Shown here: in pieces, positions 16,725 to 64,000 of the stretch
Position numbering within the stretch: the stretch's first letter is position 1
Layout of the letters: the number at the start of each line of letters is the position of its first letter
NCBI GenBank assembly: GCA_947568835.1
Contig: OX387602.1
Coordinates: forward strand, 25,223,021-25,287,020
Origin: Protonemura montana
Lineage: Eukaryota > Arthropoda > Insecta > Plecoptera > Nemouridae
Direction: 5' to 3'
DNA: 64,000 nucleotides
The notes under the pieces: generated by a model
What the model was told of the DNA's origin: nothing
The model's input: only the letters and a program-made list of their open reading frames with translations
Databases searched by the model: none
Position numbers and translations under genes: made by a program

Positions 16725-17384
16725 TCAGCTGATGAGATCGCCATTCTTGCGCAGCATTTCCAGTCTTAGCTCGTGCTCCCGCGCCTTGAGCCTCAACGCC
16801 GCGATGCTGGAGCTACGTCGGTCCAGCTCCGGCGGTCCGCTTCCTGGCGACGTCGACGCCCCGGAGTCCGAAGGCGGCGCCATCGCCGACGCCGTCGCCG
16901 CCGCCAACAGCGCCGCAGCGTGGTGATATTCGTCGCTCATCGACCGACCACCAGACATATGCTTTGGCTGCTGCGCTGCAGATATGTTTGCCAAGAGGCT
17001 CTGAAACGAGCTGGCCGCCGCAGAGTTGTAGCTTAGGTGACTCATGCTCGGCGGCAACAGAGGCTGAGGGACGCCCCGGTGTTGAAAATGATGTGGTGGT
17101 GGATGATGACTGAGATAGCTTCCCGAAAGGACGGGACCAGGAGGCAGATGATGGTAGCCACCCCCGACCCGGAACGCAGCCGCTAGGTTGACGGCGTTGG
17201 CGGTGGCGCTGTCGAACGGCTTGCGTAGGCTGAAGCCGAGATGCGAGAAGGGGTTGGGCATCGACTGAGAGACCGACGTCGGCGGCGGCGCCGCGGACGC
17301 GCTCAGGTACGGATTGTACGGATGAGCCTGCGGGCCGACCTTCTCCTGTTTCCGCCACTTGGCTCGCCGGTTCTGGAACCACAC
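16725..17384 (-). CDS. al: aristaless coding exon 3 (recognition helix, C-terminal region, OAR motif)
   Basis: The exon starts after a TTGTTGCAG acceptor with [13 protein letters not shown], so the open frame upstream of 17,384 is intron. It encodes 219 residues rich in Pro, His and Ala, and ends with the OAR motif and NGDLIS. The codons are very CpG-rich, unlike the surrounding intron. Confidence 0.95.
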   Translation of the reverse strand: MWFQNRRAKWRKQEKVGPQAHPYNPYLSASAAPPPTSVSQSMPNPFSHLGFSLRKPFDSATANAVNLAAAFRVGGGYHHLPPGPVLSGSYLSHHPPPHHFQHRGVPQPLLPPSMSHLSYNSAAASSFQSLLANISAAQQPKHMSGGRSMSDEYHHAAALLAAATASAMAPPSDSGASTSPGSGPPELDRRSSSIAALRLKAREHELRLEMLRKNGDLIS

Positions 17385-20300
17385 CTGCAACAAAACAACG
17401 GGACGTGTGAGTTGAGGCGTTTTGTCTTGAGGTGTCGTGCTCCCAGGAAGCTTGGAGATGCGGGCGTTTGGCATGAGAACAGAGCTCGCAGAAAGTTTAT
17501 CATAATACGTTATAACGTCGCGTCGAAGCAGACGGTTCAAAAGAACGGAATGGTCTTAAATATAAATTAGTTGCATGTCACGTTGTAATGTACTTGGACG
17601 CCGCGACGAGCAAGACAATTATTGCGAAGAGAAATACTAGCCGCCGACTCGAGGCGCTATATTATCATTGATAAAGTTGTGGGTATGATAATAATATAAT
17701 AAGTAATAACTGTTAATGGAGTCTGCGATATTCTTTGTTTTTCAAATCCAACTGCGATCGTGACTTTGTAAAGCAACGGAGACGCCCATCCCATCAATGG
17801 CCGCGATGCTTTGCTTTCAGACGCACACGAGAAACAATCGAGTCAAACGTCAATTATGCTTAATACATTTCATCTCTCAGAGCCTATTCCGTGCTAGAGA
17901 CCGCAGTGGCGTACGTGCTGCATCTTGTCAGGAAACTTGAAGTCTTGCAAGTCTGACCCGGCTCAGTCTCGGTACTGAGTTCTTGGCGCCAGTGGCCACT
18001 ATGTGGTCTCTTCAGATTTTTCGAAAAGCGAACATATAAAGTTGCCGACATCTGTGAGGCTACGACAATTAAATGGCTGCCAAAATAACCCATACATGCG
18101 TACCAATTAATTCAGTAAGTGCGTTGAAATCTCCACATTCTGAATGCCCGAGTTCCTTCCGAGCAACATGGGGCGCATTGAAATCTCTCGAAACATTTAG
18201 TATTTCTCCTCCGAAGGTGGACGACGCCACTGCAAAGTGAGACAGTCTACGCAAAGGCAGTACAACAACTTGGGAAAGACAAAGAAAGAGTTTGGCTGGC
18301 TCCGATTTGAGCTAGGTGGGTGTCACTGCACACTGAAATGTCATTTATGTGGATACATAATGATGATGACAGTATACAACGCAGACCTAACCTTCACTTG
18401 GTTAGAACGCTAACGTATTATCAACCTCCAGTCGCAGATATACCACAAGCAATCCGATAATACCTTAATTATAGCGTCTCAGACGTGTACGACCGTGCCG
18501 ACTGCGCAGGAACCATGTCATTTATTTAATTTAAGTAATTAACTTATGTTATGTTATTTGGCTTTATGATACAGCGGCGGCGGTTACTTCAATGAGACAT
18601 CGCGTCTATCTGCCCTTCGTATTATTTATTTTGTTAAAACGTGCGGTGCTAGATGAGAAAGATGCGAAAAGAATCGGCAATTTTCTTTTTAATGTTTTCT
18701 TGTAAACGAATCTTAGAGTCGGGAACACCGCTTTATTTCCACAAAGCAAACACAGCGCGCGCGGCTGCTCGTCGAGCTGAGAGTGCAGACATCAATTTCA
18801 CCCGGGGTGGGTGAAGAGGCACTAATTTTAAAACGCACGCAAGAGGAAATGAAGAAAAATTCCCGGGAAACGCGGTCGTGACTTGAGAGTGCTTTGCTCT
18901 CGTTTTCGAAATCAATTCGTTTAGATACTCTTTTCCCCACAGCAGGATCTTACGATGCCGCATATTGGATGTCATAATGTGGCGCACGCATGAAATGTCA
19001 GATTTCAAAATAAAATTACCCGAAAAATGAATGCGAAAACTGTAATATAATGATCTGCCAGAAAGCGTTACGGGATGGATGCAGTGCTCGGTTATTTAGA
19101 CTTGCATTTCAAATAAATTATGCCAAAAATAAACTCCATATCATTTTGACCGCATAAGACAAAGAGAATCCTAGAAACACAACGCAAAATATGCCAGCCA
19201 CGTAGAAAAAAGAAACAAATTAAAACAACATGATCGTCATTACACGATCCCTCAAATAATAATTACCAACGCAGAGATTGCATCTGCATGTACGTATATT
19301 ATATATTATAATAACAACAATGGCGGCCGCATCATGTCAGAGTTTCGTGGCTTTATCGTCGATCAAAAATGTAGTTGTTGTATTGAACAATGGGGCTGAT
19401 GATTTGGGGCGTGTGCTTTGATGACAATCAGCAGATACTCGACGCAGCTCCCGCGGTTTCCAGCTCGGGCCAGTAGCGGCAGCTAGTAGCTCATTGTTAC
19501 TTGCTACTGTCCATTATTAACCAATGGAATCAACCGATGCCCGATCGGTGATCAATTATAGGGAAAACTGTCTCAACTCCTTCAGGGTTTACAAGCATTA
19601 CACGTTTCTGGAACTAGAGGATTACCAGTAGAAAATGGAAATCGGCAAAGAAAGTAATTGCAATTTTGATGCGTACTTGAGCTCAGTTTCAGTATAAAGT
19701 TCACTACTTAGCATTAAATAGTTGTTTACCCGAAGAAAAAGTTCATTTGTAATTATTTAGTGTTATTGCTTGCGAGAAATTAAGACATACCGTCGTTGAG
19801 TCGGGTAATGATTGTTCGCATACCTACTCGGAATTAAAGCTAATTATCTACTCACTTAATATATCATGTCATTCATTCACGTACGAAACCATGTATGTAT
19901 AAGGTCGGATAAAATCGCTAATCATCGAAAGATAATTAACTAAAGATATAGAAAGGTAAAGATAGCCGCAGGAAAATTGTGCTTTGTTCACCTACATAGA
20001 GCGGCGCCCTAAAATGTAACACGAGAAATTAAAGACTGAGGCGATCTGAACATTGCCCAACAACGCAGATAGCCAACGATACAAAGAATCTTTCAATTAT
20101 GTCGCTCGTTGATGATTGATTGTTGCCTACGAATGAGAAAATTGAAGACGAAGATCCCATTAGACAGTGATTCCGGCACCGCTCGGTCACAGATGACCGC
20201 AAGGTATTTCCTGTCGATGATACATTATTGCTTTCCTTGGCGGGAATTCGCCGCAAAAAGGGAGGGGGAGTCGATTCGGAGATCGCTGAGGTGCGAGGCT

Positions 20301-23300
20301 AAATTGGGTCGACTGCAGGAATCAATCAATGATACGGTCATACCTGAGGTGATACAGATGAGGTGATACCAACGAAGAGGGTAGATCTTTGTCATTTCGG
20401 TTTGTCTTGAATCACCCATCTCTTTTGCAAGACTTTTTCATAATTGCGTCTTAAAACGAGGCATTTGTTTTAGTGATGTACTTTGTTGCCATTGCCTGAT
20501 TTTCCTTGTCTGCGGTGTGGTGGCAGTTTCTGGAGCCCTTGAGAGACCCGGTGGTAACGTGTTCGCTCCTACACATCGTTCAGAGCACGCTTCCAACGGC
20601 CATGCAAGCACATAGCGTGCCTTTGGCGTGCCCCTTTGGCGTGCCCCTTTGGCGTGCCCCTTTGGCGTGCCCCTTTGGCGTGCCCCTTTGGCGTGCCCCT
20701 TTGGCGTGCCCCTTTGGCGTGCCCCTTTGGCGTGCCCCTTTGGCGTGCCCCTTTGGCGTGCCCCTTTGGCGTGCCCCTTTGGCGTGCCCCTTTGGCGTGC
20801 CCCTTTGGCGTGCCCCTTTGGCGTGCCCCTTTGGCGTGCCCCTTTGGCGTGCCCCTTTGGCGTGCCCCTTTGGCGTGCCCCTTTGGCGTGCCCCTTTGGC
20901 GTGCCCCTTTGGCGTGCCCCTTTGGCGTGCCCCTTTGGCGTGCCCCTTTGGCGTGCTCAGCGAGCCCGGTTGTGTCTCCAAGTCGGCGATAAAAGTTGAA
21001 GCAAATTGCTTTTTCTGACGCTTTTCTTGCACGATCGCTGTCATCGACTTGTGATAGACTTTTCGAAGTGATGCTATCTTTACTTAATTAAGCTCGTACT
21101 AATTTGGGAGAACATGCTTGCAAAACACACACTTAAATATGCACCTCATCGAATCTAAAAAGTTTGGTGAAAACAATCATAAAAGCGCGGAAGAATGAAA
21201 TAAGATCCAAAAAAGTTAGAACGATGGAAAAAGTTTGATTAGTTGAAAGTCACGAAGCACAAAATAAAACTTCAGAGGAAGGAAAGGAAACTCGAGTTTT
21301 GAATTAATTTAATTGTATCAATTAGAGATGTTGAGACGTAATGCACAATGCTGAACACTATTGTGGGGGTAAAAAGTATGAACTTAATTACGCCTGCATA
21401 GGTGAGTAGCATTCACGATTTGCACTGCGTTTATGCTGTCCCCTGGCACAGCCTTGACTGGCGCAAATTGCAGTTGAAGCATAAGAGAGAAGTGACCGTA
21501 AACCGCAAATTATCTAAGCAATTTGTTCACTTCAGATTAATTAAATTAGTTGTCTCCAATAATGGTCAACAACAGATCAATAATGACAGATAGCTGCCGA
21601 TGATATTACTTTTCCTTGTGTATTTCGATATGCTAGGTATAAGCTGACTTGACTTTCATAAAGATGGATTGTCCCGCAGTGTTACACAGGTGTTTTTTGT
21701 ACCCCCATTGACCGCCAAATAACAGGTAAGGTAGGTATCCATAGAGAGGAGGCTGTATCCGCGGAAGTTTAAAATTGGTTTACTAACAACTATAAAAAAT
21801 CTAACCCTAAATTAATGAAACAATTGTGGACCAAGTGGTGGTGAAGACGACCTCGCCCGGAGGTACGGCGAGGTCTCAAAGATATGCCCCGCTGGCTTAC
21901 AGATTGACTGTGAATGAAACGTTGTGCTACAAATAGCTAATAAGTCGGCTATGCTAGTCGGGGGTGGTTGCCCACTGCAGGGCGCCGAGCTCGGACAAAA
22001 GATCTCGCAGTTGGAGTCTGACGATACAAGAGAAGAACGCCACGGAGGGCCGCACGCCGATGTCTTCAGGAGAGTGCCGAGAGAGGCTGCACGCTATGGG
22101 CAGGCGGCAGAGGGTGGCGTGAGGCGAACGACTTTACTCTTTAATTAGATTAAGAAGAACGCAAACAAATTGCCACGGTCAAAGCAGTCCAATTAACGTT
22201 TCAATTATTTGTGGATCAATTAAAGTTTCGGCAATTATTCATTTTTCAGTCATGAACTGGTATAAAGAAATGAGAAATTCTTTTGTCGCTGAGCGACACC
22301 GCTGGGAATGCCCTTCGTGTACCGACCAGATATTTCGATTCCTCGACTCTTTGAAACTCGAAACAAACGGATAAAAAATTACGAACAATTGTAATAATTA
22401 TTCACTGAGCGTGTCGCAATGCTGTGCTTCAGAAACTGGTCCTCGTCGAATAATTGAACATCAGATAAACTAAATTACTATTCGCTAAGGAACAGGCGTA
22501 AAAACTTATTGCATGTCTACATTTGTGTCTCGAGTAAAAAAACCGCACATGTATAAGTAATTGGGCCTTTCAATTTATTCTAATTACCGCCTCTCTGATG
22601 ACATTCGCTTCATGATGGCAATAGACCTTCGGAGTGAGAGGTATGACGATCATACGCATCGTTCACTGTGGATTCCTAACTGCATCAGGCGTTATTCGAC
22701 GTCGAGTTGATGGTGGATGTTTTGCGCCCATGAGATGAATTGCTGCAATATTGTACATCTTCCACGCTACGTGCGGGTTTGTTATAATGTAATAAGAAAT
22801 GAGAATGTAATTTACACGATGGGTAGAATTAAAATGGTCGGGGCAGGAGCAGGTCGTCTTTTACAATCAGCCTCACCTTGAGACCTGCCATTAAATGGCA
22901 TTGCAGTAGCCTAGGATATAATAGCGCAGAGGCTAATTATTGTAAACGTGTTTCAGGGTAGAGGCAGGTATATACCTACGTGTAGGTACATGTCTCAATC
23001 TTTAACAAGCAAAACAATTAAAGTGGATAATTTAATATTAACTATTTAATTAAATTGAAACGCATAGCAACATTTTCTGTATGAAATGTGGAACAAGTTT
23101 TGTACATCGCCGTTGTTCCTGAGGAACATTTTTACAGTGGTAAATTATTTCTCGGAAGCCGAGTTCGTTTCTTTAATGTGACGTTGGAGGCCGCCCTGAG
23201 GAACGTTCTAGAGGCAATGAGAAGTCGTCGAGATTATTATTTAAAAAAAAACCGTGGACCACAAATCGCTGACCAATGGAGCACGCGTAATATGTCGTCA

Positions 23301-26300: not shown

Positions 26301-28154
26301 TTAATTCACATTTGACTGCAATTAAAACGTGATTAATTTCATGTTACGTCATCTGATTTCAATTAACGCTGCGTGCCTACACTTATTTTGTCCCCGAAGG
26401 CTCCAAAACAAGAGACCGTCCGCTGTGTAAATGTTGTCCATGTATTTACCTGTCTCGGTAATTACATACCTTCTATGCGGATGTGACTGGTAATAATTAT
26501 AAACGTTATACTTGTTTCTAATTAACGTCCGACCGATTTTTAAAACTCTCTCAATAACGAGTAGATGTTAGTATTTCTTGAATATGAATGTTTAGAATAC
26601 ACGGTCATGTTGGGAACCGATTTAGCAACAGAATTCAATCGCCATGGTAGCCCAATAACATGAAAATGAACTGTGATTAGGATTACCAAACTTCTATTCT
26701 GTGTTGATGACCGAAAATATTGTTCTGTTAGCTTTGACCTACGATTAACATGTGAGTTGCTTAAGTCGACTAACTGTCCTACTGCCTAGGTGCCCTATGT
26801 TGCCCTATGATGCCCTATGCCGCATTGTAACTAATGTACGAGATGCCGAGTGCGCGACGCGTCGCCTGTGCATCCGGTCCTACAGCAGTAACGAACAGAA
26901 ACAACTAATTTCCTGTAATTATCATGCAGCAAATTTACTCAAATTAAGTAACCCCCTTTGCACATGTACGTACCTATGTCTATACGTGCCACCGTGGCTA
27001 AGCAGACCGGCGGCAAATCAAATTAATACGACGAGAAAGTATAGTCCCGTGTATTTTGAGCCCTTATCACCGCCGTATAGGACAACGCTTATTCCATTTT
27101 CGGTTAATCGTTAATTAGACTGTTTAAGTGCATTTGTAGTTACTGTAACAAACCACCTGATTTCAGTTGACGATAAAAAAACTATATCATCATTATTGAC
27201 TCGTACCACGCGATTTCGTGGAACAGAGAGATATATACGTTGTATTTGTTGCTGCATATATCACGCTATATGTTGCGATGGGCGTGTAACCCAACGAAAT
27301 AATCTTCGCCTAAGTACAGGTAACTGACCCCTCCCAGCCAGTGGTAATTGTTAATTACATAATTGCTTTGTCGGCCACTTTATTGGGGGTACCAAACCGA
27401 CGCGAGAAACAATTTTATCAGATTATAGATTTGAGAGCGAGGAAGTGTAAAACGTGCGTCAATCTTTGGTAACGCGCCTCAAAAATTCCATACACGCCTC
27501 GCGACATTGTCTTTCAGTGTTGATAGTGATTGTATTTAATATTAGGTCTGGTTGTAAAATGCCCAAAAGTACGTGTGGAGAGAAATGAGTACACTAAGTA
27601 GGTTATGCGCCAATCGTCGAGTTATCGGTATCTCCCGACACTTAATTACAGGTACCGCCGTTCGGAATGCCGCGCTATAATCGCTCCGTGGCCTAACGCG
27701 AGGCCTCGGCTTGTTTTTGGGCTGCGGATGGCAACAGAATATTAATTCCCGTGGCTTTCCTCGCATTATAATCGTCCATGGACAGATACCTAATTGCTTT
27801 AATTGTAGCCAATAAACTATAATGAAAATGTTAATATTTGGAGCCTTTAATATCTGAAATCATCGCTGCAGCAGCTTACCTCGTGAAAACATCCGGGTAG
27901 TGCGTCCTGGCGAAAGCTTTCTCCAGTTCCTCTAGCTGGAAGCTGGTGAACGTGGTTCGATATCTTCTCTGTTTTCTCTTCGGCTGAAACTCGTCGAGTT
28001 CTCCCTCGCTGTTGTTGTCGGACGCGTTGCTGCTTCCGGCGGGGTCAGCGTGCTCCATCATCTTGGACGACTTGTCGGCGTCGACGAGCAGGGTGGAGGG
28101 TGGTGGCGACTCCATCGCGTCGTCGTCGGGTTTGCTTTCTTCGGAAATCCCCAT
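16725..28154 (-). CDS. al: Aristaless-type paired-class (Q50) homeobox transcription factor, three coding exons, 326 aa
   Basis: Joined coding exons 28154-27880, 25038-24993 and 17384-16725 (981 nt with stop) encode a 326-residue nuclear transcription factor. In insects, aristaless patterns distal appendages (leg tip, antennal arista). The protein begins MGISEE, as I recall insect Al doing. A short acidic stretch precedes a paired-class homeodomain at about residues 62-121, with glutamine at homeodomain position 50 (Q111) and asparagine at 51 (N112). Then come QEKVGPQ and HPYNPYL, and [15 protein letters not shown] at about residue 140. The middle is His-, Pro- and Ala-rich with [11 protein letters not shown], and an OAR motif ([19 protein letters not shown], about 299-318) lies near the C-terminus. 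Introns fall inside the homeodomain at codon 31 (phase 2) and at 46/47 (phase 0). No octapeptide is apparent. ARX is the vertebrate relative, but QEKVGPQ and the HPYNPYL block favour arthropod aristaless. There is no frameshift. Confidence 0.95.
17385..24992 (-). other. al: aristaless intron 2 (7.6 kb)
   Basis: This intron interrupts the homeodomain between positions 46 and 47, a common intron site in homeobox genes. Apart from the 13-bp minisatellite at 20,621-20,956 it holds only short unconvincing frames and a GC-rich patch at about 21,850-22,130. Homeodomain-type TAATTA cores are frequent, but the AT-rich background makes that weak evidence of enhancers. Confidence 0.85.
20621..20956. repeat. 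Perfect 13-bp minisatellite, 26 copies
   Basis: The unit TTTGGCGTGCCCC repeats head to tail with no substitution or indel. The motif GGCGTGC occurs 26 times, from 20,625 to 20,950, at an exact 13-base spacing. Because 13 is not a multiple of 3 and the unit lacks stops, long open frames appear in several frames on both strands (repeat peptides such as [13 protein letters not shown]). They are artefacts of the repeat, which lies in an aristaless intron. Confidence 0.97.
24993..25038 (-). CDS. al: aristaless coding exon 2 (46-nt micro-exon, homeodomain helix 2 region)
   Basis: Only 46 nt, too short for an ORF scan. The acceptor TTTTCAG precedes it and CAG|GTATGT follows. One base completes Arg92 and the rest encodes [15 protein letters not shown], homeodomain positions 32-46. 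The frame joins exons 1 and 3 exactly. Confidence 0.95.
25039..27879 (-). other. al: aristaless intron 1 (2.8 kb)
   Basis: A phase-2 intron inside the homeodomain (codon 31) with canonical GT-AG ends. No RNA gene or mobile element was recognised. A minor 10-bp triplication (GCCCTATG-type) sits near 26,790-26,820. Confidence 0.85.
27880..28154 (-). CDS. al: aristaless coding exon 1 (N-terminus and first half of homeodomain)
   Basis: Encodes residues 1-91 plus two bases of codon 92. It has an acidic, Ser-rich N-terminus, a basic PKRKQRR stretch, then homeodomain helix 1 up to THYPDVFTR. The donor is ACGAG|GTAAG. The start is taken at 28,154 because MGISEE matches the insect protein. A codon in the same frame just upstream (28,157) is GTG, not ATG. 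Confidence 0.92.
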
Positions 28155-28258
28155 CACGCTTGCATCCAGGGTGCAGTGCTGATCCGTGGACTCGACACCG
28201 TTGACGCCGCCGTTGATGCCGTTGATGCCTTTGATGCCGTTGACGCCGTTAGGATAAT
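28155..28258 (-). other. al: In-frame segment upstream of the aristaless start, with Asn-Gly-Val/Ile repeats
   Basis: A good acceptor (pyrimidine-rich, ending CCCGTTCCAG) places an exon start at 28,258. From there to the ATG at 28,154 the frame is open and would encode nine-base-periodic Asn-Gly-Val/Ile repeats, then ESTDQHC. It has no ATG of its own, so it is either the end of the 5' UTR or part of a longer N-terminus begun in an upstream exon that I could not find. Confidence 0.5.
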
Positions 28259-28399
28259 CTGGAACGGGTGAAGGATAATTGTCACGCTTTGAACAGGATT
28301 GACTGCACTGCGGGTTACATATACGCAGGGAGTACGAGACAATAATATGTCTGAGAGCCAGATTTTGTTGACTGATACCTGACTGGATTCATCAACCGT

Positions 28400-44313: not shown

Positions 44314-44469
44314 TAGGAACACTACTACCATCTCAAAAATTGATGCCCAAACGGGGACATTATGCATCCAAGTAGCTCAATTGGCTAGAGCAACACCCGC
44401 AAAAGGTGGAGATCGGGGTTCGAGTCACTGTTTGGGCATCAATTTTTGAGAGGGATAGCAGTGTTCCTA
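44314..44469. mobile_element. MITE-like terminal-inverted-repeat element with a tRNA-like core
   Basis: Left arm 44,316-44,352 and right arm 44,430-44,467 are inverted copies that differ at three positions in 38. They are flanked by TA on both sides (44,314-44,315 and 44,468-44,469), as expected of Tc1/mariner-type insertion. The 77-bp core and part of the right arm form a tRNA-like sequence. There is no transposase frame, so the element would be non-autonomous. The TA flanks are short and could be chance in AT-rich DNA. Confidence 0.75.
44366..44438 (+). tRNA. tRNA-like sequence (probably a pseudogene or pol III promoter module)
   Basis: It has a perfect A box (TAGCTCAATTGG), a GGTTCGA B-box core, a 4-bp D stem (GCTC/GAGC), a four-pair anticodon stem with one end mismatch, and a 7-base acceptor that pairs imperfectly with TTTGGGC. 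The anticodon would be CAA, but the base before it is G rather than the invariant U33, there is no long variable arm as tRNA-Leu needs, and A1 faces C72. It is unlikely to work as a tRNA. The 3' acceptor strand lies inside the right inverted repeat. Confidence 0.6.
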
Positions 44470-54923: not shown

Positions 54924-55150
54924 TTTTTAGAAAAACTATTTGAACTGGGTTTTGAATGCTAAGTAAAGGGCTACTAAATTTCCCGACGTTTCGCAACATA
55001 TACTAGTTACTTCTTCAGAGGTTTGAGCAGTCCTCAAACCTGACTGCTCAAACCTCTGAAGAAGTAACTAGTATATGTTGCGAAACGTCGGGAAATTTAG
55101 TAGCCCTTTACTTAGCATTCAAAACCCAGTTCAAATAGTTTTTCTAAAAA
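54924..55150. repeat. Perfect 108-bp inverted repeat with 11-nt loop
   Basis: Arms 54,924-55,031 and 55,043-55,150 are exact reverse complements over all 108 bases, with CCTCAAACCTG between them. Each arm carries a CTGAAGA...GAAAC-GTC block like those in Penelope-type retroelements. The repeat begins 51 bases past the stop codon of the minus-strand Ig gene, so it would sit in that gene's 3' UTR if transcription continues to the next canonical AATAAA (about 54,606-54,601). Perfect arms suggest a recent origin or ongoing correction. Confidence 0.97.
55056..55089 (+). ncRNA. Hammerhead-ribozyme-like motif in the inverted repeat (mirror copy at 54,985-55,018 on minus)
   Basis: Core CTGAAGA (55,056-55,062) fits CUGANGA. 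GTAAC (55,064-55,068) can pair with GTTGC (55,077-55,081), followed by GAAAC and a GTC possible cleavage triplet (55,082-55,089). One unpaired A precedes the stem. Penelope-like elements are known to carry minimal type-I hammerheads. Activity is not shown. Confidence 0.35.
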
Positions 55151-55200: not shown

Positions 55201-55514
55201 CTAAATCTTCTGAGACACCTCCAACGATTGTTTCAGAGCAATGTGATCAACCCTACAAGTGATCATCTTGCCGACATGCGCAGGCTTGACAGTGATTGAC
55301 AGTTTCTGGATGATGGCCTGCCTGTCCCAGGGCCAGACCCAGTTCTCTGGTATGAGATCGTCATCGGCATCGGCTCGCACCACCTCCTTGCCCACCAGCC
55401 ATGTGATACTGGAGACGGGGCGACTGCCGCGAACTGTACATATGGCTGTCAGGGTTTTCCCGGCGCCGAGCGGTTTTCCTGGAGTCACGGACAGTTCCGG
55501 GGCTTCAGGCGGAG
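55201..55514 (-). CDS. Ig gene 1, domain C3 and stop
   Basis: Residues about 936-1039. C2-set-like: TAICTVRGSRP, ITWLVG, WVWPWD, MITCRVDHIAL. It ends LEVSQKI and TAG (55,203-55,201) with no following membrane segment. Confidence 0.87.
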
Positions 55515-58500
55515 CTGCAAGGAAAAGTTACTCAAATGATTTGATCTCAAACATTGTGCTTATCAAATAAATACTAATTAAGTGCATTACTAATTACGAT
55601 TTTATGGGAGACCCTGCGGCTAGATTGACAAACCGATGTTTCATGAGCGACACCATGTGACCACACTTCATTGTGAACCACACCAAGTATCTACGACTGT
55701 CACTTATCGGCTCTTGTTTAATGTGTTGTTTTTAAGAAAAACCATTCCATAGACCTCTAGAGCCATTTATTGCCAGAAGGGCTGCTAGCAAGCAAATGCG
55801 TACAGAGCTTTGTCATGGTGCTTCTAATAAAACATACTTTAGCTTTGGTTGCACCATGGAAATAGTTACCAAGCTTATTCCGAAGGTGTGGTTTGAATTC
55901 TTGTAAAACGCCAGTAGACTCGTCTAATTCTAAAGTGCATTTGCTATCCAGTCACACGTTTCTGAATACGACTGAGATCGCCCTATCAGTCTGTATGAGT
56001 TAATTTCTTAAATCTTTCTGATAAGCATATGTCATCAATCTACATACTGATGACGGTAATGATGGCCGCCCTGGCAGTGCCCCGGGCGCCTGGCTCCTCG
56101 CCCCAGCACCACACGGGTCCGTTGTCCTCCTCAGCGACATTGAGCAGCGTGACCCCGCACTGGCCGTTCTCTAACCCCGTGCCGTAATATCGATAGAAGG
56201 GGGTAGACGCGGACTGCGCGCCCTCGTGAAAGCGCACATAGTCGTCCTCTCTCTGGACCACCACCGAGCACTCCTTCAGAGGGCGGTCGGCGGCGCACAG
56301 GATGTCCACGTTGGAGCCAGGGGTCACGTCGGCCCGGGTTGGGGTCAGTGTCATGGGAAACTTGGCAGGATCTGAAATGATGCGATGTTTTAGGGAGGCG
56401 TCGCTGTCTTCATCGAAGTATTTCAGGTGTTATTTCGTTAAAATATCTTTTCATCTGAGAGCATCGAAAATTGAAATTGAATGCAATTGTGCGTCAAGCA
56501 ATCAGCGTGTGCCAGGACCTGACATGCATTGCTAATCTATTACATCATCATAACATTTTCCATCTTTATAGATTTGTGTTCCGCAAATTGAAAAATGGTA
56601 TCTCCTGCTCCTTATCATGCACACTTAGCTTATCATAACACCGAGATAAGCTATCATGCAATTTTTATCAAAAGTCACAACTCACTGCCAGATCTGAAGG
56701 TCATCAGTGCTTGCTTCCAGCCTCCCTTGGCCCCCTGGACGCGACAACCGACCACATAGCGACCCCAAAACACGTCGGACAGCACAACTCCGCACTGGCC
56801 GTTCTCCAGTCCCGTCCCAGTGTATTGGGCACTGTACCGAAGTTTTCCCTCCGTGTCGGTAGCATTGGTCGTTGCCGAACGCGCTCCCCGGTCGAAGTCG
56901 ATCGGGGGGAAGTTCACCTTCCAGTGGTTGATGCTGAACTGACAACGCTTCAACGGAGCCTTTGAGGTGCACATTACCGTCAGGTTTCCTCGGTAGGGGA
57001 AGTGTGCGTCTTCTGGTTCAATCACCAGGGTCGTCTCTGAAAGTTCTGTGATAGCCGCGGATACTGAAAAATACTTTTTTTTAAGAAAAACATGGTCGAA
57101 GAGGCGTTTTTAATAAAACGACGGTAACCTGGTTGACCAAGTGCCCACCTCTGTTTGAATCGCCGGGGAGAATCTTCTTTGCGCTTTTAATTGGCTCCAT
57201 GAGCATCTGGTGATCCACCTGGCACACCACATCTTTACCAATGTACTCTCTCTTCACCTTGAGTGTCAACTTCTGGGTAATGCTTTGCTCGTCCCACGGC
57301 CACTTCCACTCAGCGATCGGCGCGTCGTCGACGTCGTCCTTCCTTACGACTTCGCTGCCCACCAACCACGTGATGCCGGCCACGGGCCGACTTCCCCTGA
57401 CGGTGCACACGGCGTTCAACGTGGTCCCCTCGGCGTACGATGCACCGGAAGTAAAGGCAAGCTCCGGGTTGCTCGGAGCACCTGGAAGGAAACGTTTCAG
57501 TATTCGTAACAATTGCATACTCACTTTGAGCTTTGATAATTTTTTTTTTTTTTAGATTTTCCTAGCAAAAGATTGGTCTGTGATTCATCTCTGAACCAAG
57601 TTCTGCTTTGTTAGGTTTAAATAAGGAACAGGAAACACTTTTTTTAATCTATTGCACACGCTTAGAAATAACTAACTCACTAGCAACTGTAACGATTGAC
57701 GCCATCGCCGTCCCCCGCGTGCCGTTCTGCTCGCCCCAGCACCACACTGGTCCGTTGTCAACGGGGGACACCTTGAACAGCGTAACCCCGCAGTGACCTG
57801 CCTGCAACCCTTGTCCGTTGTACTGGTAGTGGACGGTGGCAGCTATCGATTGGGCGCCCTCACTGAAGTAAATCTCCTTCTCCTGGCTCTGAGTGTCGAT
57901 GTAGCACGACGACAACGGGCCATCGGCCCTGCATAGAACGTTCACGTCGCTTCCAGGAAGCACGACGGCCTGACCTGGGTCGACAGTGAAGCCGAACGGT
58001 TCTGCCTCTGCACAACAGATTGATCTGATTAGAGCAAATTATCTAATCATGAAAGTGAGAAATAGTGCGCAGTTCAAATCAACAATGCCACTTGCGTCCT
58101 GATGTGACGGTCATCACAGCCTGTCGCCATCCTCCTGTCTCGCCTCGAACACGACACCCAACGATGTAGCGCCCCCAGTAGACGTCGGATAACAGCAGTC
58201 CGCACTGACCGTTAGCAAGGCCTGTACCGTAATACGCCCCCTTGTATTTGAGGCGTCGGTCCGAACCCTTGGCCGTGTACAACTCAGATTGAGGCCCCTT
58301 GTTGAAGTTCATGATAGGGTAGTTGGTGCGCCAGTTGTTGACTCTGAACTCGCAGTTGGTTACAGGAATGTCCGACTGGCACATAACGGTCAGGTTGCCT
58401 CTGTATGGGAACTTGGCGACTTCAGGGGTGATTACTAATCCCGATTTAGTTGCTTTTAAAGCTGCGCTGGATTTACGTGATCCTTCGCCTGGAAAGAGAA

Positions 58501-60205
58501 ACCAGAATTTGGACTTTCGTTTGAACGACTCCAGTGCTGATTTATGATTTTTTTATTGGTGTGGGAAACAGGACATTGATAAGGGAGGCGTTGAAAAATT
58601 GTGCATAGCAAATTTAAGTTGACTTCTATTTTTATTTAAAATAATTAGGCCGTATGCTAGTAACAAACACATATTATATTGCAGAATATGCAATATCGCA
58701 TTTAACCGATATGTATATTAATGAATACTGAACTACGATCCTAGATAAGAGAGACAATCACCCATGACACCAACACACAAGTTATTTGCATTAAAAAAAA
58801 TCACATGCACTTAATTAAATGCAGGCATTAAAAATTGGGGACGGAAGTGGAAACATGAACAATATGGCCTGTTCTGTTGAGCTATACTTTCCTACCTATC
58901 ATCTTCGCGACTTGGTTAGCTTGTTTCAATGCGGGATGGTTCACCCTGCACACCAAATCCTTGCCCAGGTACTCCTTCTTGAGCGTCAAGACCAGCTTCT
59001 GCGTGATGATTTGCGAATCCCAGGGCCACGCCCACGTCTCTGATGGCACGTCGTCTTCGGCATCTTTTCTCACAATCTCATTGCCCACAAGCCAGGTGAT
59101 ACTCGCGACGGGTCGGCCAGCCTTTACCGAGCAGACGGCTGATATCTTGGCGCCCACGGCGTATTTATTATCCGAAGACAGAGTAAGCTCAGGCTGAGCA
59201 GGAGGGCCTGCAAAAAAGTTCTTCATCAAGCCAAGTCTAAAGAAACCCATTTGAATCAGCAATCTACAATCTACATACTGATGACGGTAATGATGGCCGC
59301 CCTGGCAGTGCCCCGGGCGCCGGCCTCCTCGCCCCAGCACCACACGGGTCCGTTGTCCTCCTCGGTGACCTTGAGGAGGGTGACCCCGCACTGGCCGTTC
59401 TCTAAACCTGTGCCGAAATACCGATAGAAGGGGGTAGACTCGGACTGTGCGCCCTCGTGGAAGCGCACGTAGTCGTTCTCTCTCTGGACCACCACCGAGC
59501 ACTCCTTTAGGGGGCGGTCGGCGGCGCACAGGACGTCTACGTTGGAACCGGGAGTCACGTAAGCTTTGCTTGGCGTCAGCGTCATGTTGAACTTGGCAGG
59601 GTCTACGAGGAAAACACAATATTAACTTTTATCTGATTTTGTATAAGATATATAAAGTTTCAAACATTGTTCAACTCACTGCCAGCGCGGAACGTCATAA
59701 GGGCTTGCTTCCATCCCCCCTTAGCAGTGCGGGTGCGGCAGCCCACGACGTATCGCCCCCAAAACATATCTGTCAGCAGTAGTCCACAATGACCGTTTTC
59801 CAGCGTCGTGCCGGCGTACTTGGCGGTGTATCTGAGTTTGCCCTCGTCATCAGATTGCGAGTACACTTCGGAGTTCACCCCCCGGTCCAAGTCAATCAAG
59901 GGGTAGCTGTTTTGCCAGTGGTTGATACGGAATTGGCATCTGGTGAGTGGCTCCTTAGAGCGACAAGTCACGGTCAAGTTCCCACGATATGGGAAGTGAG
60001 CATCCTCAGGCTCGATCACTATGTCGTCAGCGAGTATTCCTGAATGGGACAACTTTGTTATTGTTTTCGTTGTTATTTGTTAAAATATTGCAATATTTAA
60101 TTTTGGAGCTTCTTGTGGTTATTGTTTATCCATACAATGCGACAACTTACCGCTTAGGAGAGAGAGGCCCAGCGCTGTCCACAATGTTATTGTGGATGGA
60201 GCCAT
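55201..60205 (-). CDS. Secreted protein of nine Ig-like domains in three A-B-C triads (ten exons, 1,039 aa)
   Basis: Exons: 60205-60151, 60039-59680, 59602-59279, 59207-58896, 58488-58096, 58007-57681, 57481-57149, 57063-56686, 56371-56048 and 55514-55201. The join gives 3,120 nt, in frame throughout. A signal peptide (MAPSTITLWTALGLSLLSG) precedes nine Ig-like domains, one per exon, ordered A1 B1 C1 A2 B2 C2 A3 B3 C3. Every intron is phase 1 and most are under 0.6 kb. A and B domains carry four cysteines each; C domains have the usual two cysteines plus strand-C Trp. C3 runs straight into TAG with no membrane segment or GPI-type tail, so the product should be secreted. All donors are GT except the GC donor after A2. 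I recognise no named family. Roles in adhesion, signalling or humoral recognition are possible but unproven. The gene lies head to head with a related gene at 62,228. Confidence 0.85.
56048..56371 (-). CDS. Ig gene 1, domain B3
   Basis: Residues about 828-935. Same exon length (324 nt) and nearly the same sequence as B1. The similarity extends across the donor into the intron edge (TACATACTGATGACGG on plus), pointing to recent duplication or gene conversion. Confidence 0.88.
56686..57063 (-). CDS. Ig gene 1, domain A3
   Basis: Residues about 702-827. After the acceptor TTTTTCAG it begins VSAAITELSETTLVIEPED, followed by YRGNLTVMC, KRCQFSI, NGQCGVVL and WGRYVVGC. Closest to A1 among the A domains. 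Confidence 0.88.
57149..57481 (-). CDS. Ig gene 1, domain C2
   Basis: Residues about 591-701. C2-set-like: NAVCTVRGSRP, ITWLVG, WKWPWD, DVVCQVDHQML. A slightly longer tail (ILPGDSNR) runs to the donor AGAG|GTGGGC. Confidence 0.85.
57681..58007 (-). CDS. Ig gene 1, domain B2
   Basis: Residues about 482-590. B-type with LPGSDVNVLC, SSCYID, AGHCGVTL and PVWCWGE. It is clearly diverged from B1 and B3, but close in length and sequence to the first B domain of the divergent plus-strand gene. Confidence 0.87.
58096..58488 (-). CDS. Ig gene 1, domain A2 (longest A exon, non-canonical GC donor)
   Basis: Residues about 351-481. A basic Ser/Lys-rich linker of about 20 residues precedes the A fold (YRGNLTVMC, NCEFRV, NGQCGLLL, WGRYIVGC). 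The exon ends GGAC|GCAAGT. Only the GC donor keeps the phase-1 frame; the GT two bases downstream would shift it. Confidence 0.82.
58896..59207 (-). CDS. Ig gene 1, domain C1 (C2-set-like)
   Basis: Residues about 247-350. The Cys in SAVCSV, the Trp in ITWLVG, then WAWPWD and DLVCRVNHPAL give a classical two-Cys Ig fold of CD80/nectin-like C2 type. A conventional GT donor (GATAG|GTAGG) precedes the in-frame stop in the intron. Confidence 0.88.
59279..59602 (-). CDS. Ig gene 1, domain B1
   Basis: Residues about 139-246. Begins NPAKFNMTLTP. The four cysteines are in VDVLC, KECSV, NGQCGVTL and PVWCWGE. It is nearly identical to B3 (about 10 differences in 104 residues). Confidence 0.88.
59680..60039 (-). 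CDS. Ig gene 1, domain A1
   Basis: Residues about 19-138. Begins GILADDIVIEPEDAHF. It has the A-type hallmarks: YRGNLT before the first Cys (an N-glycosylation sequon), RCQF in place of a strand-C Trp, NGHCGLLL on strand E, and WGRYVVGC on strand F. The donor is GGCA|GTGAGT. Confidence 0.88.
60151..60205 (-). CDS. Ig gene 1, signal-peptide exon
   Basis: A 55-nt exon encoding a hydrophobic leader (TALGLSLL core) and one base of Gly19, with donor AGCG|GTAAGT. The signal-peptide exon of the divergent gene is also exactly 55 nt. Confidence 0.85.
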
Positions 60206-62227
60206 GATGAAGCGGTGTGCACGCGAGCGATATCGCACTTCGAATGGTCGTTGAACAGGCTTTCGGTCGCAGTGGAAGCCGGTGTGCAGGGGGATTCCAA
60301 TTTTCATGAGCGCGCCTGTGAGCGTCTGGACAAGCCTTGATTGCCGCCGCCGCTAATGGCTTGGATTCAGATTCACACTCTTCACGAGAACAAGTTCTAT
60401 TAGAAATGACGTCAGGCTTATTTTCAACCGTGTTTGCCTGACGTAAGTAAAAGAAGATGCCCTTCACAATGCCCGCTTCGGCTTACGAGGAAAATTAGTT
60501 TCAAAAAAATCCTTGACTAAAATTAATTTTTACATTAGCCACTGCGTAATTTTAATGACACGTAAACACCTATTATTTCTTGAACATTTTAAAAAGTGTT
60601 TGCACATTCATTTCTGTCATTTTACATTTGAAAGTTTCACAAGAGATTTCCATTTTCTTTGCGTGGCAATGCTAATCAATTTTCTTAAGTTTAACAATCC
60701 GTTAATTAAAGAAATTAGCAAGGATTTGGTTATACATTATAATTTGGTCACTCTCGGGACATCTATGCTAACCTTGAACTTGTTGCTTTGCATCTTTTGT
60801 GACCTTCCGAAGGTTATTGCCTGCCGGTCTTACAGCAAATTGCTTGTTCGACAAGGAAAAATATTTAATTGCTTGCAGGGAAGTACGCATTACTAGGAAT
60901 TACATCTCTTCGTGATTCATTTTTATCTAAAATAATTTAGAAATCACAACAAATACACTGTCAATGTTGAAAGAGAGACGACCATGGTATCCTATGATTA
61001 TGACAGTTTTATTTTCATATTAGTGGCAAAAAGACGGCACTTGTGATGCCAGTGTAAGATGATAATAATGTGTTTTTTTTTTACTGTCAATTAGGATGCA
61101 CAATGGCTTTTTTTACCAGTCAACGCGCAGCTTTTATTAAAACACAATTACACCATTTCGTGTAGTTCTATCATCTTCGCATTTAAAATTGTGTCTGTTC
61201 TTTCAAACTCAATGCTAGCGGACCAATTCTTAAATTGCAGCAGTTAAGCTATATTCTTAGCAAGTTTGGTGTTGGTCCCCTATTTCTTATCGTACGTTAT
61301 GCCTTACAGATTCTAATTGCTCCAGATTCTAAGAAGTTGATTTGATTGGTAGTATAGGATTATACGTAATCTTTTTAAAAACATGTTATTATACATTAAA
61401 AACCAGTAATTACATTTAAAACAAATTATCTGAAACGATCGATTTCCTTATTCAAATGCCCTTGATTTGCATTGTTAAATAGGGGAAATTGATCGTTTCA
61501 CGGTATGGAAATATATGCCAAGATAAAATCCACTAGATAGATATTGAGTTGTACGAGGTGCTTCGTAGCAATCAAGAAAAAAAAGGACACAAGGAAAGAT
61601 GAAGAAATAAACCACGACATAAAACAAGACAAGATTTGTCCGGTTTTTCTGAAATGAAATCAGAAACCTGTCTGCGTGCAGCCATGGCCCAGCAAGGTTT
61701 GCCCTGACCTTTCTGCTCCTCACGCTCAGTTTACAAAGTTTGTTTGACCACACTGTTTGCGTTGCCAACCAAATTGCTAATAAGTGCTCATTTCAAACGC
61801 CCAAAATAAAAAATAAACTATCTGTTCTTTTTTTTTCAAAGTTCTTCGCGTGATTTTTTATTTGGCGAGTCACTTATGAGCAAGTTCGAGAAGATCGTTG
61901 AATAAAATTTCATTTTCGTTCTGTTTATTACATCACCAAGAATTGTGAGAGGTCGTGTACAAATACATGGCAAGCAAACCGGCCGGGAAGTCGAGTCTAG
62001 TTCTTGGGCCTGCCGCACTTGTGCCTGCCTGACGGGCCGGTGTGGCTGTTGCCACCGTCGAGCACGCAGTCCACGGTGATCGAGGCAGTCGCTGGTGCCA
62101 CTGGAAACCAGCGATTGTGCTTCGCAGCTACATGGTTTGTCTCGAGATGCTCTGGAGTGCAGTGTGGCCCAAGTACACTTGAGGATACCGACCTCTCAAG
62201 ACGCAGCTGGGAGAAATCAACTAAAAA
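60206..62227. other. Divergent intergenic region between the two Ig genes
   Basis: About 2.0 kb separate the two start codons and should hold both promoters. I see no clear TATA box at the expected distance on either side. A 127-codon plus-strand frame (60,513-60,896) is AT-rich and unfamiliar, and I do not call it a gene. Confidence 0.6.
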
Positions 62228-64000
62228 ATGGAATACCTACTGGTATTGGTTTTGACTCTTTTTGTGAGTCTTAGATCAACAGGTGTGTACATGGTGATCT
62301 CACTGATTAAGGTCGTAGAAAAAAACGTGGGTGTTTCGAGATGGCATGGATTATGGGTATTGCTGTATCTTTGCTCGTCTGCTAAACAATAATTATATTG
62401 TCTATTTCCAGAAGCGCAGTCTCTTAGCGTGAAAATATCACCGGAAGACGCCCAATTTTCCTACCGGGGAAACTTGACGATCATGTGCCAAGCCAATTTG
62501 GCGATCACACACTGTCAATTCCGTTTGTACAACTACCGGAAAAGCTACCCCACCATCGATTTCAACAAAGGGGCCCAAAGTCCCGAGGCGATGGTCAAGG
62601 GCTCGGATAGAAAATTGAAGTACAAAGCCAAGTACTTCGGCAATGGTCTCAGTGACGGCCAGTGTGGCATGTCCTTGAACAGCGTCTATTGGGGGAGATA
62701 TCTTGTGGGGTGTCGTGTTCGTTCGGCCACGCAAGGGTGGAGAGAGGCGCAGATGACAGTGCGCTCTGGAAGTGAGTTCAAAAGGATGCAATTACAGTGA
62801 TATTTAAATAATTGAGAAAGTAATGAGACAAGTAACTGAAACAAACTTGTTTTTAAAAACATATTTCGTACCATTACAGTTACTAACACAATATATCGTA
62901 CTTCCTTATCACTTTAACAAGGTATGACAGTCCAAAGAGAACAATACAATTTGCATGGCAACGCATAACGAGTCAAGTAAAAGCATGACCAAATCCTTGG
63001 GCGTATACAGAGTCAATGGCATCTGACGAACTTGAATGTTATTTGTTTCTTCTATCACGTGCTACCCAAGTCGGCAACTGCGTGCTCTATTGATTCCTAA
63101 CCTTCTTGAGATTACACAGGTGCCGCACCAGGATTCGCGATCACCATCACACCCCGTCGGGTGGTCGCCCTCCCAGGGAGCGACGTGACCGTCCTGTGCG
63201 AGGCAAAGGTGCCCCTGTCCACGTGCTACATCGACATACACAGCGAAAAGACAGAGATCTTCTTCAACCACGGACCGGCGTCGGACTCCACTAGTCACTA
63301 CAAGTATTACGGGGCAGGACTTCCGACGGGGGAGTGCGGCATCTCTTTGATGAAGGTCACCGATGCCGACAACGGCCCCATTTGGTGCTGGGGGGAACGG
63401 ACGGGAACCACCGGGACCGCAAGAGCCTCCATTTTGACAGTCGCCAGTAAGTTCAATAAATGGAGCGTAGTTATTTTTATTTGTTTCGCTAGTTTCCATC
63501 TGACGTTTCCGGGATGAGACACAAATTATTTGCCTCCAAATCTATCAGAATAAAAACGTCAGTCGAGGAGAAAGATAAATCAACGATTGAGTATGTTTCA
63601 TTGGTTGATTTTGTTTTATTGAAAGTATTTCCAGAGTGAGAATCCCGATCTGAGTGTGGCGTTCTATGTAGGCTCACAGGTTCACGTACTCTCATGTAGC
63701 AAGTTTACTGTAAGTTTAATTATTATTATGAGTGGTTCCAATTTTTACTTCCTATTAAGACTTTATTATGAAATTTGTCCATTGCTTCGATACTAGGTCT
63801 CAACAAAATGTGTTTTGCACTTATTTTGAATCATTTAAGTCGTCTGCATCCTCCGAATATTAGTTAACGCTATAATGTCTCAATTTGTGAAAACACCAAC
63901 GTGTTTTCTTTCAGAGCCTCCGCTCGAGCCTGAGTTATCTCTCTTAACGGGGAGCTCATACTCAGTCGGAGACAGTCTTATTGCCGAGTGCGTGGTTCGT
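62228..64000 (+). CDS. Second secreted Ig-like gene, signal peptide plus A-B-C triad (continues beyond window)
   Basis: Exons: 62228-62282 (signal peptide MEYLLVLVLTLFVSLRSTG), 62412-62771 (A4), 63120-63446 (B4) and 63915 to beyond 64000 (start of C4). All junctions are phase 1 with GT-AG ends: ACAG|GTGTGT, GGAA|GTGAGT, GCCA|GTAAGT. The start context is AAAAATGG. A4 has YRGNLTIMC, THCQFRL, DGQCGMSL and WGRYLVGC. B4 has LPGSDVTVLC, STCYID, GECGISL and PIWCWGE. C4 begins KPPLEPELSLL and reaches its first Cys (AECVVR) at the window end. A4 and B4 are closest to A2 and B2 of the minus-strand gene. Total length, number of triads and any membrane anchor are unknown. Confidence 0.85.
62412..62771 (+). 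CDS. Ig gene 2, domain A4
   Basis: A 360-nt exon, the same length as A1. Begins EAQSLSVKISPEDAQF and keeps the A-type four-Cys pattern and NLT sequon. FNKGAQS and KGSDRKLKYK are shared with A2. Confidence 0.88.
63120..63446 (+). CDS. Ig gene 2, domain B4
   Basis: A 327-nt exon, the same length as B2. Begins SAAPGFAITITP. Four cysteines in the B pattern, ending TGTARASILTVAS. Confidence 0.88.
63915..64000 (+). CDS. Ig gene 2, start of domain C4 (partial)
   Basis: Follows a strong acceptor (TTTTCTTTCAG). It encodes about 28 residues up to the first Ig cysteine, in the frame expected for a C-type domain. Cut by the window end. Confidence 0.85.

Follow-up and report, generated by a model that had tools for sequence, protein, structure and literature searches.

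The two genes that close the window studied here (the whole 64,000-nucleotide stretch of Protonemura montana DNA, C1:25223021–25287020) encode secreted proteins assembled from three immunoglobulin (Ig)-like domains, termed A, B, and C, and one of these genes continues past the window end into a complete serine protease. Together with their relatives in the 258 Mb of genome searched, they suggest a family of Ig-triad serine proteases with a Fas3-like core that would constitute a variant, possibly a new one among the arthropods, of the modular serine proteases. With a confidence somewhat short of even, we propose that members are secreted modular proteases in which the Ig triad serves as a sensor and which may initiate hemolymph cascades. 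We read them as secreted Ig-triad proteases because the protease is last in all 33 genomic clusters that contain both Ig and protease matches, because only a 76-bp intron separates the two parts of gene 2, and because no transmembrane segment follows the signal peptide in either gene.

Gene 2 lies on the plus strand from position 62228 and opens with signal peptide, A, B, and C exons, the last of which is cut by the window end at 64000. The C exon ends at position 2255 of contig piece L010, and the intron that follows leads to three exons that make up a complete serine protease (Pfam Trypsin, 3.1e-39; best PDB match thrombin, 108.6 bits), for a product of 640 amino acids when the C exon and protease are read in the contig. 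This short, phase-matched intron could not accommodate a promoter and signal peptide of the protease's own, and C and the protease very probably belong to one gene. The catalytic residues His419, Asp479, and Ser583 are all present, Ser577 corresponds to position 189 of the S1 pocket, and the putative activation site, Leu374–Ile375, has Leu at P1. Eight cysteines occupy positions that fit the usual four bonds. Of these, Cys363 and Cys499, judged by position, would tie the Ig chain to the activated enzyme; we take both the numbering and this pairing, of the Cys1–Cys122 type, from chymotrypsin. The hydropathy search for a transmembrane segment after the signal peptide returned a best 19-residue Kyte–Doolittle (KD19) value of 1.46, inside the protease.

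Gene 1 occupies the minus strand from 60205 to 55201 and encodes a signal peptide followed by nine Ig domains in the order A1, B1, C1, A2, B2, C2, A3, B3, C3, with a stop codon directly after C3 (1039 amino acids). Its 30 cysteines are distributed as 4 + 4 + 2 per triad, and no transmembrane segment was detected after the signal peptide (best KD19 window, 1.06). Both gene models were joined at consensus splice sites from genomic sequence alone; the A2 exon of gene 1 has a GC donor, and the introns joining signal and domain exons are phase 1 throughout. The first-pass annotation had described thirteen leader or domain exons; all are present, and 14 are counted here with the truncated C. Its rule of one domain per exon in A-B-C order with phase 1 introns is reproduced by the spliced models, as are the three full triads of gene 1, the start of a fourth in gene 2, the head-to-head layout, and secretion. 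Its description of two secreted Ig-triad genes holds for gene 1, which encodes Ig domains only, and has to be amended for gene 2. As both boundaries of the domain exons are in phase 1, skipping would preserve the frame, and the triads of gene 1 could be imagined as alternative exons in the manner of Dscam that give many single-triad isoforms; the strict A-B-C order, in place of arrays of a single domain type, makes this quite improbable. The annotation had also called for a count of genes in the cluster beyond the window: no further A, B, or C exon was found at E < 0.01 in L009–L013 (C1:25275001–25325000), and the local cluster consists of genes 1 and 2 only.

The annotation had likened the layout to an expandable family, which accords with the dozens of matches to A, B, and C elsewhere in the genome. 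Searches with single exons (E ≤ 0.001) gave 49 matches for A1, 51 for B1, 68 for C1, and 69 for the last protease exon, counts that are lower bounds for large families. Grouping by contig and strand with gaps of at most 12 kb yielded 88 clusters, of which 33 contain Ig and protease matches, 33 Ig matches only, and 22 protease matches only; one tandem array also begins with a protease match. That the triads and the protease are separate adjacent genes, the fusion being a reading error, would accord with the Ig-only and protease-only clusters and with gene 1, whose triads end without a protease, but the short in-phase intron of gene 2 and the terminal position of the protease in every mixed cluster leave this view almost no credence. 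The full series A-B-C-S or A-B-C-S-S (S, protease) occurs in 16 of the 88 clusters once overlapping A and B calls are merged. Two of these, on C8 and C10, have the same spacing and scores as C5:20.83–20.85 Mb and may represent alternate copies in the assembly; without them, 14 full clusters remain. The usual architecture, as far as the genome matches indicate, is one triad per protease, with the protease-free triple triad of gene 1 as the exception. At C11:6.75–6.78 Mb, a protease is preceded by four consecutive triads, of which the third and fourth score weakly and lie on split exons; a signal-peptide-like exon stands between the second and third triads and none that is convincing ahead of the first, so that the locus may comprise two genes. 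Four tandem loci on C5 combine a protease with B and an A-like domain but show no detectable C; in one of them (L022), Thr/Pro-rich open frames occupy the expected place of the linker.

The fold of A1 is V-set Ig by structure prediction and fold comparison, and nearly all of the 50 matches listed are T cell or other immune receptors, a listing that does not exclude families missing from it. The C domain matches Pfam C2-set_2. At E ≤ 0.001, Pfam assigned no family to A (0/11) or to B (0/19), and B gave only weak Ig_3 matches below the cut-off (E 0.008–0.15); against all PDB chains, the B alignment scored best with CD276 (27.8 bits). The Ig-like assignment of the annotation is therefore secured for A and C and remains weak for B in Pfam. 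We regard A and, tentatively, B as V-like and C as of the C2 type. Our own A, B, and C profiles score 119.7–161.6 bits on 11 whole exons, from which the same profiles were built.

A named relative of the B-C pair is likely to be Fasciclin III (Fas3), an insect cell adhesion protein whose three Ig domains precede a transmembrane segment and a tail. Drosophila Fas3 scores 58.3 bits against the B alignment profile, with Ig1 as the best stretch (58–60 bits across runs), and 55.5 bits against the C profile, with Ig2 as the best stretch (56–58 bits across runs); the A profile gives a weak 20.1 bits, on Ig1. The maxima over 1000 shuffles of Fas3 were 5.4 (B), 8.0 (C), and 5.2 (A) bits. These scores rest on a Drosophila sequence not drawn from a database record and are best taken as a lead with strong scores. 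With the same sequence, 18 genomic matches were obtained (E ≤ 0.001), of which 17 lie inside the A/B/C/protease clusters; the other, at C16:26947672, contains three stops. B also has the four-cysteine pattern C..C..GLxxGxCG..C of Fas3 domain 1. The C alignment is not specific to Fas3, as nematode SYG-2 reaches 63.3 bits over three stretches among PDB chains. Unlike Fas3, the triads have an extra A domain in front, are repeated, and lack a transmembrane segment, and gene 2 has a protease in place of Ig3, transmembrane segment, and tail. Hemolin resembles these proteins in being a secreted insect Ig protein but has four Ig domains without the A-B-C rule, and it scores only 18.2 bits with B. The statement that no named family has this repeat thus stands for A and B in Pfam and needs qualification for the B-C pair, and no strong match to a named family across the complete A-B-C unit emerged from the databases searched. 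Separately, the B exons of L025, L026, and L030 have lost both canonical Ig cysteines and retain the second, Fas3-like pair.

The match of B and C to Ig1 and Ig2 of an adhesion protein would also suit developmental or matrix proteases of the Nudel/Gd kind, in which Fas3-like triads place the protease at cell contacts and gene 1 is a secreted adhesion molecule. We consider this unlikely, since copies are numerous and scattered and roughly one in two of the full loci is catalytically altered, a pattern that in our judgement fits an expanding immune-type family better.

Among insect proteases, the closest parallel to the architecture is offered by ModSP, HP14, and MSP, which likewise join secreted N-terminal modules to a serine protease; they have LDLa and CCP/Wonton domains where Ig triads are found here. 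Neither LDLa repeats nor CCP were found in gene 2, whose N-terminus consists of signal peptide and A-B-C only. In PMC10732536, Drosophila ModSP is described as chymoelastase-like, autoactivating, and preferring Leu at P1, and as the only such enzyme in the cascade model; Ser189 is linked to chymoelastase-like pockets in PMC10036332. Gene 2, with its Ser189 pocket and Leu activation site, resembles ModSP in these respects, a specificity predicted from residues and from which many paralogs differ. The multidomain insect proteases tabulated in PMC10036332 have LDLa, CCP, CUB, and other modules of this sort, and those of Drosophila and Ostrinia in its Table 2 include no Ig type; Nudel, Tequila, Corin, Gd, CUB, TSP, and Masquerade combine modules with a protease domain as gene 2 does, but no Ig-containing type is tabulated among them. 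No report of an Ig and serine protease combination was found in the literature searched, which comprised titles and abstract openings, with subscription papers mostly outside. Digestive, salivary, or venom chymotrypsin-like enzymes, their Ig domains binding food or prey surfaces, would account for the high gene numbers and for tandem arrays such as that at C5:6.855–6.89 Mb, features common in such enzymes; the long modular N-terminus, predicted Cys1–Cys122 linkage, and non-tryptic activation site, however, typify cascade zymogens and make this reading distinctly unlikely.

In the proposed mechanism, gene 2 would encode a zymogen composed of signal peptide, A-B-C, and chymotrypsin-fold protease. 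Its triads would bind a target surface or one another and thereby gather zymogens, one of which could cut the next at the Leu–Ile site (autoactivation); such zymogen-on-zymogen cutting is suggested by the chymoelastase-like S1 pocket together with the P1 Leu of gene 2. The tethered active enzyme would then start a hemolymph cascade of the melanization, clotting, or Toll type. Gene 1 might supply a soluble, multivalent partner that acts as an adaptor, as an opsonin, or by competing for ligands that the zymogens also bind, and members with altered catalytic exons could be binding-only proteins in the same way, with domain exons homogenized one at a time. In a fuller version that we hold only tentatively, a V-type Ig sensor and a self-activating protease are united in one polypeptide at about 14 full loci, roughly half of them catalytic and the remainder binding-only alongside triad proteins that, like gene 1, have no protease, for humoral recognition with sensor exons exchanged or converted singly. 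To be taken as tentatively is the analogy that such a protein would in effect be an antibody-like sensor fused to a C1-like protease.

The residues at the active and activation sites of the paralogs define how far this proposal can extend. The active-site motif is visible in 25 catalytic exon pieces, and position 189 is Ser in 23 of them, Gly in one, and Asn in one; four further pieces lack the full motif (among them L019, which reads Gly189), and the frameshifted C4:149-kb exon (L049) was excluded. At position 194, where an activated protease requires Asp, 7 of the 25 pieces have Tyr, and this subclass is probably inactive or binding-only. Activation sites could be read at 27 distinct places (29 rows less one duplicate, L030_578 = L058, and L057, read outside the exon), two additional pieces being too short. 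P1 is Leu at 17 of these, Arg at 6, Val at 2, and His at 2, and position 16 is Ile or Val at 11, Ser at 14, and Ala or Leu at 2.

Several of these results weigh against the cascade-initiator proposal. Only 8 of the 27 activation sites, gene 2 included, have the canonical Leu followed by Ile or Val, and self-activation cannot hold family-wide because 14 have Ser16 and 6 have Arg at P1. The 14 full clusters divide into 6 with Tyr194, 1 frameshifted (C4:149 kb), and 7 with a seemingly intact catalytic exon. Many copies are near-identical, so that neither residue nor site counts are independent. The gene 2 protease domain has no particular likeness to ModSP, scoring 83.7 bits with a ModSP sequence not drawn from a database record and 108.6 with thrombin, and these scores do not single it out as a ModSP ortholog. 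Finally, the role given to gene 1 is one that we infer.

As a separate observation on where the family lies, 7 of the 14 full clusters (without C8 and C10) lie no more than 0.7 Mb from a contig end, a cut-off chosen post hoc: C3:27.03, C4:0.15, C5:20.85, C11:18.27, C13:0.45, C14:0.67, and C15:12.6 Mb. Four of the seven have Tyr194 and one is frameshifted.

Domain exons appear to have been converted or exchanged singly, as the likeness between triad copies can stop at the exons. B1 and B3 of gene 1 are 90% identical with a dS of 0.34, whereas dS reaches 1.6 between C1 and C3 and is saturated between A1 and A3. The similar DNA of B1 and B3 spans 338 bp (89.6%) and ends 2 and 12 bp beyond the exon; closeness limited to the B exon rules out a recent duplication of the whole triad. 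At the C11 locus, two triads have four exon pairs with identities of 94.8–99.5% (pS 0.01–0.11 in the three pairs in correct frame, the A5 pair not being used), and their three introns hardly differ from shuffled sequence (0.43, 0.46, and 0.49 vs 0.43, 0.47, and 0.43, one shuffle each). Tandem C5 gene pairs have exon identities of 72 to 98%, with three matches of 68–79 bp only beyond the domain exons; one 97.8% match continues beyond its open frame as far as the retrieved sequence reaches, so that the exon bound is not clean there. The unlinked copies L025 and L026 are about 95% alike across exons and introns alike. Trees of A, B, and C had 2/9, 2/19, and 4/14 inner branches starred and, being mostly unsupported, were not used.

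Table 1. Exons of the two Ig-triad genes (window positions unless contig piece L010 is named).
Feature	Position	Strand	Basis or remark
Gene 1 signal-peptide exon, MAPSTITLWTALGLSLLS/G, donor GTAAGT, phase 1	60151..60205	-	
Gene 1 A1, V-set Ig, 4 Cys	59680..60039	-	structure prediction and fold match
Gene 1 B1, 4 Cys, Fas3 Ig1-like	59279..59602	-	
Gene 1 C1, CD80-like C2-set Ig	58896..59207	-	Pfam
Gene 1 A2, GC donor	58096..58488	-	
Gene 1 B2	57681..58007	-	
Gene 1 C2	57149..57481	-	
Gene 1 A3	56686..57063	-	
Gene 1 B3, 90% identical to B1, close likeness limited to exon	56048..56371	-	
Gene 1 C3 and terminal stop codon	55201..55514	-	
Gene 2 signal-peptide exon	62228..62282	+	
Gene 2 A	62412..62771	+	
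Gene 2 B	63120..63446	+	
Gene 2 C, first 86 bases only in window	63915..64000	+	remainder in contig, L010 1935-2255
Gene 2 protease exons	L010 2332-2517, 2612-2916, 3330-3698 (C1:25287332-25288698)	+	

Just 3′ of gene 1, a perfect foldback element with 109-nt arms and a 9-nt loop (54924–55150) belongs to a high-copy repeat, with at least 84 match rows (40 scored of 1493 candidates). A GGGRNNYYCC sequence at 60289, near the start of gene 1, is no evidence of NF-κB-like sites, as the window has 4 matches vs 4.3 expected. Downstream of gene 2, L010 5702–5956 (C1:25290702–25290956) holds an amiloride-sensitive sodium channel exon (Pfam ASC). Elsewhere in the window, two homeobox gene parts lie on the minus strand at 16728–17555 and 27879–28388, one with an OAR motif (Pfam), which by eye look ARX/aristaless-like. 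A tRNA-Leu(CAA)-like gene of 73 nt, short for a tRNA-Leu, is found at 44366–44438, and a perfect 13-bp tandem repeat (25.9 copies, 100%) at 20620–20956.

If the proposal is correct, the fusion of an Ig triad to a protease would be a new coupling of recognition to a proteolytic cascade, for which ModSP uses separate recognition proteins, and a Fas3-like adhesion module would have gained a humoral role. Homogenization of single exons would then offer a concrete route by which sensors may be reshuffled or kept uniform.

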